Shown here in pieces: positions 18,200 to 24,002 of a stretch of 64,000 nt of DNA. The position numbers and the translations under genes are program-made. The notes under the pieces were generated by a model. It was not told the origin of the DNA. It saw only the letters and a program-made list of their open reading frames with translations, and did not search any database. The number at the start of each line of letters is the position of its first letter. Within the stretch, counting starts at the first letter, position 1. Source of the stretch: Reyranella sp. CPCC 100927 (GTDB lineage: Bacteria > Pseudomonadota > Alphaproteobacteria > Reyranellales > Reyranellaceae); contig NZ_VOHA01000002.1 in NCBI RefSeq assembly GCF_007859315.1, positions 124,001 to 188,000 on the forward strand, read 5' to 3'.

Positions 18200-20701
18200 C
18201 TACACCCGCGTCGCCTCGGCGATCAGGTCCTGGGCTGCTTCGTCGAGCAGTTCATCGAGCGTGTCGCGGCCCATCACCTGTTCGCGGCCGATCTCCAGCA
18301 GCACCGGCACGGCCAGCGGCGAGATGCGATCGAGCCGGCGGTAGTCGATCCGCCCCTTGGCCCGGCGCAGCAGGTCGCCCAGCCGGCGGATATCGGCCAG
18401 TTGCCAGGCGGCATCCTGGCGGGTGGCGCGCAGCAGGATGTGATGGGGTTCGTGGCGGCGCAACGCATCGTAGATCAGGTCGGCACTGAACGTGACCTGC
18501 CGCCGCGACTTTTCCTGGCCCGGGAAACGCCGCTCGATCAAGCCGGCGATCACCGCGACGTTGCGGAATGATCGGCGCAGCATCGAGGACTCGTCCATCC
18601 ACGCTTCGAGATCGTCACCCAGCATGTCCTCGTCGAACAAGGCCTCGACCTGCTGCGGCCGCGCCGGCTCCAGACCCCAGATCCCCAACACGTAATCGGT
18701 GGCGACAAAACCCATGGGCTTCAGGCCCAAGCGTTCCATGCGCCGGGTCAGCAGCATGCCCAAGGTCTGGTGCGCGTTGCGGCCTTCGAAGCAGTAGGCG
18801 ACCAGGAATTGCTTCAGGCCGCGCGGGAACCCCTCGATCAACAGCCGATCGGCGCGCGGCAGGGTCGAGCGGATGCCCTGGATGCGCAGCCATTTGCGTA
18901 CATCCTCCGGCAGATCGGCGTGGCGGCCAGGGTCGGCGATGATGTCGCGCACCCTGCCGGCGAGGTAGGTACTGAGCGGCAGGCGGCCGCCGCCATAGGC
19001 GGGGATTTTGGGATCTCCGCCATCGCGCACGCGGCTCACCTCGGCGTGCAGTTGGCGCACGCCCTCGAAGCGCAGCAGTTGGCCCGAGAAGATGAACGTG
19101 TCGCCGGCGATGAGACCCTGGATGAAGGTCTCCTCGACCTCGCCCAGCACCGGGCCGCCGCGCAGCTTCACCTTCATCAACGGCTGCTCGACAATGGTGC
19201 CGACATTCATGCGGTACTGGCGCACGACGTCGGGCCGCGTCACCTCCCATTTGCCGTCGCTGCGGGGAAACAGCCGGCGCCATTTTTCGTAGGCCTGAAG
19301 CGCATAGCCGCCGGTCGCCACGAAGTCGAACGCGTCGTCGTAGTCCTGGCGCGCCAGGTCGCGAAAAGGCGCCGCCCGGCGCACCTCGTCATACAGTGCG
19401 GCACGGTCCAGCGGCGCCGAACAGGCACATCCCAGGATGTGCTGCGTCAGCGCGTCCAGACACGGCGGTCGCGGCGGATCGCCATCGAGTTCCTTGGCCG
19501 CGACGGCTTCCTGGGCAGCGATGCATTCGAGCACTTCGAAACGGTTGCCCGGCGCCAGCAGCGCCTGGCTGGCCTCATCCAGGCGGTGGTTGGCGCGGCC
19601 CACGCGCTGCAGCAGGCGGCTCACGCCCTTGGGCGCGCCGACTTGGATGACGAGGTCGATGTCGCCCCAGTCGATGCCCAGATCGAGCGAACTGGTCGCC
19701 ACCACGGCGCGCAGCCGGCCGGCGGCCATGGCCGCTTCGACCTTGCGACGCTGTTCGATCTCCAGGCTGCCATGGTGCAGCCCGATCGGCAGGTTCTCGC
19801 TGTTAAGCCGCCACAGCCCGTCGAATGTCAGCTCGGCCTGCGCGCGCGTGTTCACGAACACCAGCGTCATCCTGTGCTGGCGGATGGCGTCGTAGATGTC
19901 GGGCACCGTGTGCTGCGCCATGTGCCCGCCCCACGGAATGCGGGCATCGGGATTGAGAATCGAAATGCGCGGCCGCGCGCCGCCCTCGACCTTCACGACC
20001 TCGACGGGCGCATCGCGAAACCGGAGCCAGTCGGCGTAGAGCGGTGGATCGTCGACTGTCGCCGACAGGCCGACAAAGCGCGCCGCCGGCGCCATCGCAG
20101 CCAGCCGCGCCAAGCCCAGCGCCAGGAGATGGCCGCGCTTTGTGGTGGCGATGGCGTGCAGTTCATCGACGACGACAGTGCGCAGCCCGGAGAAGTAGTC
20201 CGCCGAATCGGGATAGGACAACAGCAGCGCCAGCGACTCGGGTGTCGTCAGCAGCATCTGGGGCGGCCGCACGCGCTGGCGCTCGCGGCGATTCTGCGGC
20301 GTGTCCCCGCTACGGGTCTCGACACGCACCTGCAGCCCCATCTCGGCGATCGGTGCCTGGAGGTTGCGATGGATATCCGTCGCCAACGCCTTCAGGGGGG
20401 AGATGTAAAGCGTATGCAGCCGCTCGACGGCTTCCCCGGTTGCCGCAAGATCGATCAGGCTCGGCAGAAACCCCGCCAGGGTCTTGCCGGCGCCGGTCGG
20501 CGCAATCAACAGCGCCGACTTCCCTTCCGCCGCCAGCCGCACCATATCCAGCTGATAGGGCCGCGGCACCCAGCCTCGAGCCACAAACCAGTCGCCGAAC
20601 CGCGCCGGCAAGGGCGTCGAAGAAAACTCAAACGCCAGCTGGTGACGGGTCGGACCGCGCCGCTCCAGCGGCGCCTTCTTCATGTCACCAGTCGACGCCA
20701 T
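18200..20701 (-). CDS. ligase-associated DEXH-box DNA helicase (Lhr-Core type)
   Basis: An 833-aa ATP-dependent 3'-5' translocase/helicase of the Lhr-Core class. Walker A APTGAGKT lies about residues 67-74, the DEXH box VVDELHAIA follows, then LVFVNTRAQAELTF, SSLDLGIDWGDIDLVIQVGAPKG and the arginine-finger motif LLQRVGRANHRLD. The winged-helix and Lhr C-terminal core fill the rest. It belongs with the exonuclease and ligase encoded divergently at 21337-24002. ATG 20701 is preferred because GGAG lies 6 nt upstream; ATG 20683 is an alternative. Its first codons lie inside the end of a RAYT gene and a REP palindrome (20638-20674), so the extreme N-terminus is probably not ancestral. Confidence 0.9.
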   Translation of the reverse strand: MASTGDMKKAPLERRGPTRHQLAFEFSSTPLPARFGDWFVARGWVPRPYQLDMVRLAAEGKSALLIAPTGAGKTLAGFLPSLIDLAATGEAVERLHTLYISPLKALATDIHRNLQAPIAEMGLQVRVETRSGDTPQNRRERQRVRPPQMLLTTPESLALLLSYPDSADYFSGLRTVVVDELHAIATTKRGHLLALGLARLAAMAPAARFVGLSATVDDPPLYADWLRFRDAPVEVVKVEGGARPRISILNPDARIPWGGHMAQHTVPDIYDAIRQHRMTLVFVNTRAQAELTFDGLWRLNSENLPIGLHHGSLEIEQRRKVEAAMAAGRLRAVVATSSLDLGIDWGDIDLVIQVGAPKGVSRLLQRVGRANHRLDEASQALLAPGNRFEVLECIAAQEAVAAKELDGDPPRPPCLDALTQHILGCACSAPLDRAALYDEVRRAAPFRDLARQDYDDAFDFVATGGYALQAYEKWRRLFPRSDGKWEVTRPDVVRQYRMNVGTIVEQPLMKVKLRGGPVLGEVEETFIQGLIAGDTFIFSGQLLRFEGVRQLHAEVSRVRDGGDPKIPAYGGGRLPLSTYLAGRVRDIIADPGRHADLPEDVRKWLRIQGIRSTLPRADRLLIEGFPRGLKQFLVAYCFEGRNAHQTLGMLLTRRMERLGLKPMGFVATDYVLGIWGLEPARPQQVEALFDEDMLGDDLEAWMDESSMLRRSFRNVAVIAGLIERRFPGQEKSRRQVTFSADLIYDALRRHEPHHILLRATRQDAAWQLADIRRLGDLLRRAKGRIDYRRLDRISPLAVPVLLEIGREQVMGRDTLDELLDEAAQDLIAEATRV
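20638..20674 (-). repeat. REP element, left copy (inside helicase 5' end)
   Basis: A 37-nt palindrome-bearing unit (core GCGCCGCT/AGCGGCGC) that matches the reverse complement of 21284-21320 at 36 of 37 positions. It encodes about residues 10-22 of the helicase and flanks the RAYT transposase on its downstream side. Confidence 0.85.
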
Positions 20702-21241
20702 GCCGAACTCCAGCGCCAATCAACCTTGTCTTCGACCAGCTTGGCCTTCACCGGGTTTTCCTCAATGTAGGTGAGGGCTGTCTGATGATGCCCCTCATCT
20801 CGAATGAAGCGATCAAAATAGTCTACATGCCAGAAGGGACCGTTGCGCTTGAGATGTCGGTTGGCCATCCGGGCCACGTACTGTTTCCATGAAGCAACGA
20901 CCGCACCCAATCCATGGCCATTGAGTGTTTCAACCATGACATGAACGTGATTTGGCATGATGCACCAGGCTAGCAAGCGGTAACGTTGACTGTCGAAATG
21001 GAGCAGCGCGACCTCCATCAATCCCGCCACGACAGGATCGCGCAACCAACACGCACCAATGCCCCGATCCCCGATCCAGTAATATCTCGAATCTGCTCGT
21101 GCCTTCCGGATCATTCAGAACCTGTTTTGCGACATGCGCGGGCAAACTGTCTGCAAGCCTGAAGGTTACAGTCTGGACAAGCCGCGGTGTGTCATAGTGC
21201 GGAAGATACCCGCGCGAATGCCATCCTTTTGGTTCGCTCAT
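20680..21241 (-). pseudogene. REP-associated tyrosine transposase (RAYT), frameshifted
   Basis: A Y1/IS200-like HUH single-strand transposase domesticated for REP mobilisation. The N-terminal part (MSEPKGWHSRGYLPHYDTP, then VTFRLADSLP) reads in one frame from 21241. The rest continues in another frame from about 21115: GIGACWLRDP, the HUH motif MPNHVHV, GPFWHVDYFDRFIRDE, and the tyrosine in YIEENPVKA. The switch lies near 21110-21125, where the frames overlap at CTGAATGATC; a one-base change restores the family-length protein of about 187 aa. Catalytic residues are intact, so the frameshift is recent or a sequencing error. Two inverted REP copies flank it, as expected for this family. Confidence 0.85.
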
Positions 21242-21283
21242 TGCGCCATTTTAGGCGCAGCCTAGATTACATTGAAGAGAAGA

Positions 21284-21320
21284 GCGCCGCTGGAGCGGCG
21301 CGGTCCGACCCTTCACCAGC
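21284..21320 (+). repeat. REP element, right copy
   Basis: A 37-nt unit, inverted relative to 20638-20674, with 36 of 37 positions identical. It lies between the RAYT start and the exonuclease start (21337). Its stem is GCGCCGCT/AGCGGCGC with a 2-3-nt loop. Confidence 0.85.
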
Positions 21321-21336
21321 CAGGACGCGATCTCGG

Positions 21337-22389
21337 ATGAACGCCTCGCCTTCTCCCAACGATCCGCGGTCGTGGCTCACCACCACGCCGAAGGGGTTGT
21401 ATTGCGTGCCGGGTGGGTTTTTCGTCGATCCGGCGTGGCCTGTCGAGAAGGCGGTGGTCACGCATGGTCATGGCGATCACGCGCGGCCAGGCCATGGATC
21501 CGTGCTGGCGACGCTGGAGACGATCGAGATCATCAAGGTGCGCCTGGGCGCCGAGTCGATCGGCAGCCTGCAGGGCGTGCGCTACGGCGAGACAACGCGC
21601 ATCGGCGAAGTCGATGTGCGGCTGGTGCCAGCCGGCCACATCCTGGGCAGCGCCCAGGTCGTCCTCGACTGGCGCGGCGCGCGTATCGTCGTGTCGGGCG
21701 ACTTCAAGCGCCGGTCAGATCCGACATGCCCGCCGTTCGAGCCGGTGCCGTGCGATGTCTTCGTCACCGAGGCGACGTTCGCGTTGCCGGTCTTTCGCCA
21801 CCCGCCCGACCAACAGGAGATCGCGCGGCTGCTGGGCTCGCTGCGGACGTTTCCGGATCGCACGCATCTCGTCGGCGTCTACGCGCTGGGCAAGTGCCAG
21901 CGTATCATCCGCCTGCTGCGCGCCGCCGGCTACGACCGCCGCATCTGGCTGCATGGCGGACTGATGTCGATGTGCGAACTCTATCAGCGCCACGGCATCG
22001 ACTTCGGCGATATCGCCGCCGTCAATGATGCCGGACCGATACGGCGCAACGATCTCTTCCAGCACGAGACGTTCAAGAACGCCATCGTGCTCTGCCCGCC
22101 GTCAGCTCTGGCCGATCGCTGGACGCGGCGCTTCTCCGAGCCTTTGCCCGTGGCCGCATCCGGCTGGATGCGCGTGCGCGCCCGGGCGCGCCAGCGGGGC
22201 GTCGAGCTGCCGTTGGTGATCTCCGACCACGCCGACTGGGACGAGTTGCTGCAGACCGTGCGGGACGTGCAGCCCAAGATGGTCTGGGTGACGCATGGCC
22301 GCGAGGATGCGCTGGTGCACCAGGTCCAGGCGATGGGCGTGGGCGCCGAAGCGCTGCATCTCGCCGGCCGCGACGAGGAAGAGAGCTGA
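21337..22389 (+). CDS. ligase-associated MBL-fold DNA exonuclease (Exo)
   Basis: A 350-aa metallo-beta-lactamase/beta-CASP nuclease of the SNM1/CPSF-like class. The metal-binding motif THGHGDHA (His43, His45, Asp47, His48) is followed by VPAGHILGSAQV (motif III His), VVSGDFKRR (motif IV Asp), VGVYALGKCQRI and the final VISDHADWDEL. The family partners a DNA ligase and the Lhr-Core helicase in a bacterial repair cassette. The stop overlaps the ligase start by one base (TGATG), so the two are coupled. ATG 21337 is chosen for family length; the open frame runs further upstream through the REP. Confidence 0.9.
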   Translation: MNASPSPNDPRSWLTTTPKGLYCVPGGFFVDPAWPVEKAVVTHGHGDHARPGHGSVLATLETIEIIKVRLGAESIGSLQGVRYGETTRIGEVDVRLVPAGHILGSAQVVLDWRGARIVVSGDFKRRSDPTCPPFEPVPCDVFVTEATFALPVFRHPPDQQEIARLLGSLRTFPDRTHLVGVYALGKCQRIIRLLRAAGYDRRIWLHGGLMSMCELYQRHGIDFGDIAAVNDAGPIRRNDLFQHETFKNAIVLCPPSALADRWTRRFSEPLPVAASGWMRVRARARQRGVELPLVISDHADWDELLQTVRDVQPKMVWVTHGREDALVHQVQAMGVGAEALHLAGRDEEES

Positions 22390-24002
22390 TGCAGCGCTTC
22401 GCCGAGCTGCTGGATTCGCTCGCCTTCCAGCCTGCCCGCAACGGCAAGCTGCGGCTGATGACCGACTACATGCGCAGCGCGCCCGACCCGGATCGCGGCT
22501 ATGCCTTGGCGGCACTCACCGGCACGCTGGAGTTGCCCAACGCCAAGCCGGCGCTGTTGCGCGAATTCGGCACCCAGCGCCTGGGCGAGACGCTGTTCAT
22601 GCTGAGCTACGACTATGTCGGCGACCTCGCCGAAACGCTGGCGCTGATCTGGGAGCCGGCGGACAAGGTCGGCGTCGGACACAACCGGCCACCGCCGTCG
22701 CTGTCGGAGGTCGTCGAGACCCTGCGCCAGGCCAGCAAGCGCGAAACACCCCAGTTGCTCGAGCGCTGGCTCGATGCGCTGGATGCCACGGGCCGCTGGG
22801 CCCTGCTCAAGCTGGTGACCGGTGCGCTGCGCGTCGGCGTCTCGGCGCGGCTGGCCAAACAGGCTGCCGCCGACCTCGGCAAGGTCGAGATCGACGTGGT
22901 CGAGGAGGTCTGGCACACGCTGGAGCCACCCTACCAGGCGCTGTTCGACTGGCTCGAGGGCCGCACACCACGACCGGACCCGGGCAACGCGCCGGTCTTC
23001 CGGCCGGTCATGCTCGCTACCGCGCTGGAAGACTCCGACATCGGCGGCCTCGATCCTCAGGCCTACCGCGCCGAATGGAAGTGGGATGGCATCCGGGTCC
23101 AGCTCGTCGCGGGACCAGGCTACCGGCGCATGTTCTCGCGCGCCGCCGATGAGGCCGCGTCGGCGTTTCCCGACATTGTCGAGGCCATGGACTTCAACGC
23201 CGTCCTGGATGGCGAGTTGCTGGTGGCGCATCCCGTCGACGACGGTGGTGTGCGCGTGGCCCCCTTCAACGACCTGCAGCAGCGCCTGAATCGCAAGCAG
23301 ACCACCGCCAAGCTCATGCAGGAGCACCCGGCGCATGTCCGCCTCTACGACGCCCTGATGATCGACGGTGAGGACCTGCGTGCGCTGCCGTTCGACGACC
23401 GTCGCGCCCGCCTCGAGGCCTGGTACGCCGCGCGCCCGCGGCCGCGGCTCGACCTGTCGCCGCTGGTGCCTTTCGACTCCTGGGACGAGCTTGCCGCCAT
23501 TCGCGCCGGCACGCGCGAAGCCGGCATCGAAGGGCTGATGCTCAAGCGTCGTGACAGCCCTTATGCCGCCGGCCGCCCCAAAGGCCCGTGGTTCAAATGG
23601 AAACGCTCGGCGCTCACCGTGGATTGCGTGTTGATGTATGCCCAGCGCGGACACGGCAAGCGCAGCTCGTTCTACTCCGACTACACGTTCGGCTGCTGGC
23701 GTCCCACCGAGGGCGGCGCGCCGGAGTTGGTGCCGGTGGGCAAGGCCTATTTCGGCTTCACGGACGCCGAACTGATGAAGCTCGACAAATGGGTGCGTGA
23801 CCACACCACCAACCGCTTCGGCCCGGTCCGCGAGGTCGCGCCCGGCCTGGTTCTGGAGATCGCCTTCGACAGCGTCCACCGTTCGACCCGCCACAAATCC
23901 GGCGTCGCCATGCGCTTCCCACGCGTGCATCGCATCCGCTGGGACAAGCCGCCGGCCGAAGCCGATGCACTGGCGACCCTGGAGCGGATGATCGTGGATT
24001 GA
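22389..24002 (+). CDS. ATP-dependent DNA ligase (LigB/LigC-like, repair-cluster type)
   Basis: A 537-aa three-domain ligase that seals nicks via a lysine-AMP intermediate. The N-terminal DNA-binding domain spans about 1-200. The adenylation domain starts with motif [11 protein letters not shown] (nucleophile Lys231), then DGELL (motif III), [16 protein letters not shown] (motif IV) and GPWFKWKRS (motif V). The OB-fold domain occupies the C-terminus ([21 protein letters not shown]). It is the ligase of the Lhr/Exo/Lig repair set and is translationally coupled to the exonuclease. It lacks the primase and nuclease domains of LigD, so it is not the core NHEJ ligase. Confidence 0.92.

Follow-up and report, generated by a model that had tools for sequence, protein, structure and literature searches.

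A RAYT-REP unit of Reyranella with a non-canonical REP head, a broken transposase gene and one arm in the reading frame of a repair helicase gene

The systems closest to the unit described here are the RAYT/REPIN systems of Pseudomonas and Stenotrophomonas (PMC2817692, PMC3116915, PMC3686654), in which, as in the present case, one RAYT lies between two inverted REPs, the REPs are dispersed as inverted doublets, RAYT orthologues are syntenic while the REPs change yet stay palindromic, and the RAYTs diverge faster than the adjoining genes. The present unit departs from them in having a GGRS-type REP head rather than GT(A/G)G, a broken RAYT, and a left arm that is read as helicase codons. E. coli TnpAREP (PDB 4ER8; PMC6006769, PMC8266576) shares with the Reyranella RAYT an HUH motif and a single Tyr, as well as the equivalents of W94 and R104, and the E. 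coli BIMEs, like the REP pairs of the present genome, are heterodimeric (Y/Z in E. coli, A/B arms here). However, the Reyranella RAYT is about 40 residues longer at its N terminus (the GWHSRGYLPH... segment), and its REP stems are shorter, perfect, without a bulge, and lack GTAG. REP insertions in DNA repair genes are on record (PMC3733652), and there too REP codons lie N-terminally in a repair gene, but in the present unit the REP is a RAYT-flanking arm and, from comparison with relatives, replaces the native N terminus. The IS200/IS605 elements (IS608, ISDra2) share the Y1 HUH catalytic core and recognise hairpins by the same logic, whereas the present system has no multicopy full element and its hairpins far outnumber the transposase genes. 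In kind the system is a known one; its REP head is non-canonical, its transposase gene was probably broken only recently, and one of its arms is read in the frame of a helicase gene.

The unit and its setting in the ligase gene cluster

The stretch analysed, referred to as the window, comprises 64 kb of contig C12 in a genome of 9.08 Mb and 81 contigs (G000). The features of the locus are as follows.

18200..20683, minus strand: ligase-associated DEXH-box helicase (TIGR04121); the ORF is open up to 20719
20638..20674, plus strand: left REP arm, head CGGACC and stem-loop GCGCCGCT-CC-AGCGGCGC
20680..20683, minus strand: ATGA overlap of the RAYT stop TGA (20682-20680) and the candidate helicase ATG (20683-20681)
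20680..21241, minus strand: RAYT gene, frameshifted, from two overlapping ORFs, profile matches and motifs
20680-21114, minus strand: downstream-frame ORF, catalytic part with the HVH and YIEENPV motifs
20930-21241, minus strand: upstream-frame ORF, N-terminal part (MSEPKGWHSRGYLPHYD...)
21062..21075, minus strand: 7-bp perfect tandem duplication (CCCCGATCCCCGAT) that breaks the RAYT frame, CCCCGAT twice on the plus strand
21284..21320, minus strand: right REP arm, inverted copy (36/37)
21337..22389, plus strand: ligase-associated exonuclease (TIGR04122), starting 16 bp outside the right arm
22389..24002, plus strand: ATP-dependent DNA ligase of the same cluster (TIGR04120)

The two 37-nt arms (20638-20674 and 21284-21320) are complementary at 36 of 37 positions, with a spacing of 609 nt, and both form the hairpin GCGCCGCT-CC-AGCGGCGC; a comparable inverted pair within 700 bp is expected by chance at about 1e-15 under an even-base model. 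The coordinates and the count in the first-pass annotation were thus reproduced, and so was its statement that the window holds no third copy: the 23-nt REP core occurs twice in the 64 kb, against 0.01 occurrences expected from shuffles, and no third copy of it was found there.

The same annotation placed a Y1-type REP-associated transposase between the arms. The product matches Pfam Y1_Tnp (35.9 bits; cut-off 23) and carries RAYT motifs, and in this the claim stands, but the gene is not one open frame and consists of two overlapping ORFs. The window fragment scores 79.5 or 78.8 bits against NCBIfam REP_Tyr_transpos, slightly below the curated cut-off of 80, and 21.4 bits against NCBIfam transpos_IS200 (cut-off 55). 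Alignment with 4ER8 and six relatives locates the HUH motif (MPNHVH) and the nucleophilic Tyr motif (YIEENPV) in the downstream frame, and the NP(L/V)(R/K) motif adjoining the Tyr, which is RAYT-specific (PMC2817692), is present as NPVK. Of the solved structures, E. coli TnpAREP 4ER8 is the nearest (E 9e-10); the HUH motif, the catalytic Tyr and NPVK align with it, and the fold class can be taken as settled through this homology. Membership of the gene in the RAYTs rests on descent, not activity.

The 761-bp unit has one full-length match in G000. RAYT homologues were present in 21 of the 61 relatives searched. Named matches to related RAYTs come mainly from Reyranella MAGs. Hairpins lie on both sides of the RAYT in 17/17 Reyranellaceae loci with a full-length gene; the sequence of the flanking pair varies between RAYT lineages, each RAYT having its own matching pair. 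The gap between helicase and exonuclease holds a RAYT in the same orientation in G001, from the same genus as G000, and in G007 and G011, both from another genus. In G004, from a third genus, the RAYT in this gap has the opposite orientation and lies within a REP array, and in G013 the locus is present in rearranged form. The gap is without a RAYT in G003 (same genus as G000; 133 bp) and G009 (genus of G007; 126 bp). That relatives carry a homologous unit, as the first-pass annotation implied, is borne out by G001, G007, G011 and G004, and the comparison also brought out the gaps without it in G003 and G009. RAYT loci in different species often have flanking genes in common. Because the unit is single-copy and has counterparts at the same site in relatives from other genera, it is, to judge from these comparisons, a resident REPtron rather than a freshly mobile unit, in keeping with the description of RAYTs as resident in Stenotrophomonas and Pseudomonas (PMC2817692). 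The REP-mobilising architecture proposed in the first-pass annotation is present insofar as a RAYT is bracketed by inverted REPs; the RAYT is frameshifted, so that the system is not evidently working, and the unit is resident.

The unit could instead be an ordinary IS200/IS605-type insertion sequence that itself transposes and whose inverted terminal hairpins are incidental. The enzyme belongs to the same superfamily, hairpins lie at both ends and the congeners G003 and G009 have gaps without the unit, but this reading is very improbable, since the full unit is single-copy against about 50 hairpin copies without a transposase, the REP_Tyr_transpos score is far above that for transpos_IS200, and RAYT loci of different species have the same flanking genes, i.e. 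are stationary.

In the RAYT protein trees, G000, G001, G007 and G013 are grouped with modest support (86/72) and other groupings are weak; support for a five-member clade is 60/20, and the addition of G004 was not rejected either (p 0.25). A putative single ancestral RAYT insertion in the helicase gap is neither supported nor rejected by these trees; the native helicase N termini of G003, G009, G004 and G013 speak against the fused state having simply been lost.

At G013:C72 (L095:3700-4900), the helicase gene is turned round with respect to the exonuclease gene, the breakpoint falling at the outer margin of a RAYT-flanking REP, and a remnant resembling the exonuclease start adjoins the helicase N terminus; this may be a rearrangement at the REP or a MAG assembly artefact. 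At G011:C41 (L140 / L099), the genome has about 60 perfect G007-type REPs, yet the REPs on either side of the RAYT at the locus are of another type, and a GTCTTCGG-like remnant of the older arm lies beside the helicase. It is possible that one REPtron was replaced by another in place.

The REP population and the break in the RAYT gene

Searching the genome with a 27-nt REP core gave 51 matches (≤3 mismatches) against 0 for a reversed control pattern, so that the 37-mer does mark a genome-wide REP family, as first supposed. The copies occur mostly in inverted pairs of about 95-160 bp. A pair usually consists of one arm of type A (GGCTGGGACC with the GCGCCGCT stem) and one of type B (GGGTCGGACC with the GCGTCGCT stem), whose stems differ by a compensated C-G/T-A change; next to the RAYT, the arms have a B flank and an A stem, an arm also seen in a few REPINs (L115, L116, L129). 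By a codon-usage ORF call trained on the genes of the window, 27 of 28 REP sites lie outside genes, 14 of them between convergent, 12 between tandem and 1 between divergent genes, and the paired element folds as a long DNA hairpin (z −7.6). The repeat is high-copy, extragenic, palindromic and mostly paired, and is a REP/REPIN by these expected properties, which are textbook for REPINs (PMC3116915). A literature search with the REP sequence strings returned no bacterial match.

The only REPIN of the family inside a predicted gene is at L113:2638-2722 (G000:C12:370137-370221), where the ORF spans most of a 5.5-kb locus. At L109, L112, L118, L120, L122 and L125 (also L126 and L131), a REPIN forms the core of a longer, composite repeat (about 140-250 bp); the copies are mostly 85-96% identical and reach well past the REPIN arms, as though the whole repeat had spread together.

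The orientation bias of the sites bears on whether the hairpins are bidirectional terminators or mRNA-stabilising stems between genes, with no tie to the transposase. REPs are enriched between convergent genes (14, against 1 divergent site), and such side roles of REPs are known elsewhere (PMC3733652, PMC6006769). Each full-length RAYT read in the family, however, has its own matching hairpin pair, which differs in sequence by RAYT lineage, no T-run follows the stems, and the repeat is 50-fold and paired, so that this explanation is extremely improbable.

The statement of the first-pass annotation that the 37-mer defines the REP sequence of the genome is too broad as worded, because other families exist: it defines one family of at least three in G000, and not the largest. 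The commonest REP, GGGAGCGCGGGCGTCCCGCCCGC, has 312 copies (≤2 mismatches) and flanks two intact RAYTs, G000:C4:43627-44004 (L090) and G000:C81:179606-179992 (L091), which are 60% and 54% identical to the window RAYT and score 85.0 and 83.2 bits against REP_Tyr_transpos, above the 80-bit cut-off. One RAYT per REP family is the usual report, whereas in G000 two RAYTs share GGGAGCGCGGGCGTCCCGCCCGC. The third family (GGAGCGCGCCACTCC..., GGAGCGCGCCACTCCAGTGGCGC) has 19 copies (e.g. L131:453-577); no cognate RAYT of the GGAGCGCGCCACTCCAGTGGCGC REP was found in G000, and such RAYTs are present in G003, G004 and G011.

The window RAYT has no intact reading frame, whereas its orthologues in relatives consist of one continuous frame. 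Because the 7-bp tandem duplication splits the frame, the gene as read from the assembly is probably dead, and an assembly error at the duplication may be the source of the frameshift. The orthologues have dN/dS values of 0.10-0.15, and the window RAYT compared with that of G001 gives pN 0.20 and pS 0.80, values that point to purifying selection having shaped the gene. A programmed frameshift was also considered and set low, the orthologues being continuous and the break being a perfect 7-bp duplication.

The state of the REPs was compared by counting perfect cores against one degenerate pattern in each genome. Perfect copies make up 50/61 in G000 (broken RAYT), 51/71 in G007 (intact RAYT), 60/94 in G011 (RAYT at the locus with a different REP) and 11/44 in G009, whose only RAYT homologue is distant (31% identical). 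G009 stands apart from all three other genomes (p<3e-5 in each comparison; p<2e-6 against G000 or G007). The undecayed REPs of G000 indicate that the RAYT break is recent or that activity persists. Decay of REPs after RAYT loss, together with a recent break in G000, fits these counts, with one decayed genome (G009) as its base; REP homogeneity is not a clean readout of a cognate RAYT, because G011 is fairly homogeneous without a matching RAYT at the locus.

Persisting activity would mean that the RAYT is still produced despite its frameshift, or that its frame is regained, through ribosomal frameshifting or reversible slippage at the 7-bp repeat, and that the REP system of this strain is active. 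The REPs are as homogeneous as those of G007 (82% and 72% perfect, p 0.22), a perfect two-copy repeat could revert, and the downstream ORF, which holds the HUH and Tyr motifs, has its own ATG. Against this, no slippery motif was recognised at the duplication, the orthologues have one continuous frame, and a recent mutation accounts for the undecayed REPs equally well; we regard a still active RAYT as decidedly unlikely.

The reading we prefer, and hold to be highly probable, is that the unit is a REPtron, one RAYT with two inverted cognate REPs at a founder-type REPIN locus, that was recently functional and is now probably inactive. The RAYT would have been a single-strand HUH/Y1 endonuclease related to the IS200/IS605 transposases. 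By analogy with the RAYT/TnpAREP literature, it would bind the REP hairpin and its 5' head on single-stranded DNA, cut near the foot of the hairpin and copy or move paired REPs (REPINs), the RAYT locus itself staying put while the REPINs spread. It would have been functional until recently and then broken, leaving the REPIN population no time to decay as yet.

The REP head and its guide contacts

Published REP classes have GT[AG]G at the hairpin foot (PMC2817692, PMC6006769), with exceptions noted for subclass 2.6 and class 3 (CnGA); CGTC is another published class (PMC3733652). The head of the window REP is CGGACC and not GT[AG]G. Among 43 REPs flanking RAYTs of the window group, a set made up of inverted repeats recovered by a simple search, with loci having no pair or a weak one left out, GT[AG]G occurs within 0-2 nt of the hairpin foot in none, and a GG[AGT]N(C) head (GGRS-type) in 41. 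The set includes MAG contigs labelled Chloroflexi, Verrucomicrobia, Gemmataceae, Bacteroidia and Gammaproteobacteria, labels that may be wrong. The REP stems covary across phyla, with 100% paired cells and two-sided changes in 5 of 7 pairs, a score reached by 0 of 500 shuffles.

The CGTC superfamily is characterised by a terminal CGTC, A-T pairs at stem positions 1-2, a loop of 4-5 nt and no associated transposase (PMC3733652). Assignment of the window REP to it was rejected, as the stem starts with GCG, the loop is 2-3 nt and the REP is RAYT-associated. In the segment that contacts the guide in 4ER8, the window RAYT keeps W94 and R104, whereas E100 is replaced by D, H101 by R and Q95 by H. 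The replacements at E100 and H101 cannot alone account for the different head, because PMC6006769 describes them also for subclasses whose REPs have GT[AG]G.

We put forward tentatively, at somewhat less than even confidence, a joint reading in which REPs with GG[A/G][C/G]C heads are a third superfamily beside GTAG and CGTC, accompanied by related RAYTs in Alpha- and Gammaproteobacteria, Chloroflexota, Verrucomicrobia, Gemmataceae and Bacteroidia, and in which the REPIN state of Reyranellaceae lines up with the presence, recent breakage or absence of the RAYT.

The left arm and the helicase gene

The left REP arm can be read in frame as codons of an N-terminal extension of the helicase (APLERRGPTRHQ). 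In G000, G001 and G007 no stop interrupts the helicase frame across the REP arm, and (M/V)K(K/N/R)APLERRGP is the common stretch, and G003, G009, G004 and G013 have native helicase N termini. Since G001 has no in-frame ATG, GTG or TTG separating the REP from the helicase core, its helicase has no canonical alternative to being translated through the REP; G000 and G007 may instead use a TTG start downstream of the REP. The candidate helicase start overlaps the RAYT stop as ATGA in G000 and G001 and as GTGA in G007.

These features could mean that the RAYT is mainly a host gene kept for the helicase, the two forming one transcription-translation unit under selection on helicase expression. The ATGA or GTGA overlap, the REP-encoded helicase N terminus with its shared stretch in three genomes and the lack of another canonical start in G001 would all be expected of such a unit. 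However, ATGA at the RAYT stop is also common in RAYTs at other loci, where it is supplied by the REP tail TCATGA, and the overlap is weak evidence for coupling because this tail gives the same ending elsewhere; a conserved RAYT-helicase translational coupling was for this reason demoted to a rival. The native helicase N termini in G003, G009, G004 and G013 also stand against a host-gene role, and we judge it unlikely. On the preferred reading as a REPtron, one REP copy appears to have become the start of the neighbouring repair helicase gene, the left arm and the 3' end of the RAYT now presumably supplying its start codon and first codons.

A REP arm read as the helicase N terminus would be a way for a resident REPtron to rewire a DNA-repair gene. 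The family also offers a natural experiment on REPIN upkeep, with the RAYT intact (G007, G001), freshly broken (G000) or absent (G009), and with REPs that are homogeneous, homogeneous and decayed in the genomes with an intact, a broken and an absent RAYT, respectively. If the reading of a third superfamily is true, these RAYTs would recognise another guide sequence and have another cleavage site, and if the GGRS head holds up biochemically, the rules for guide reading by HUH transposases would be wider.
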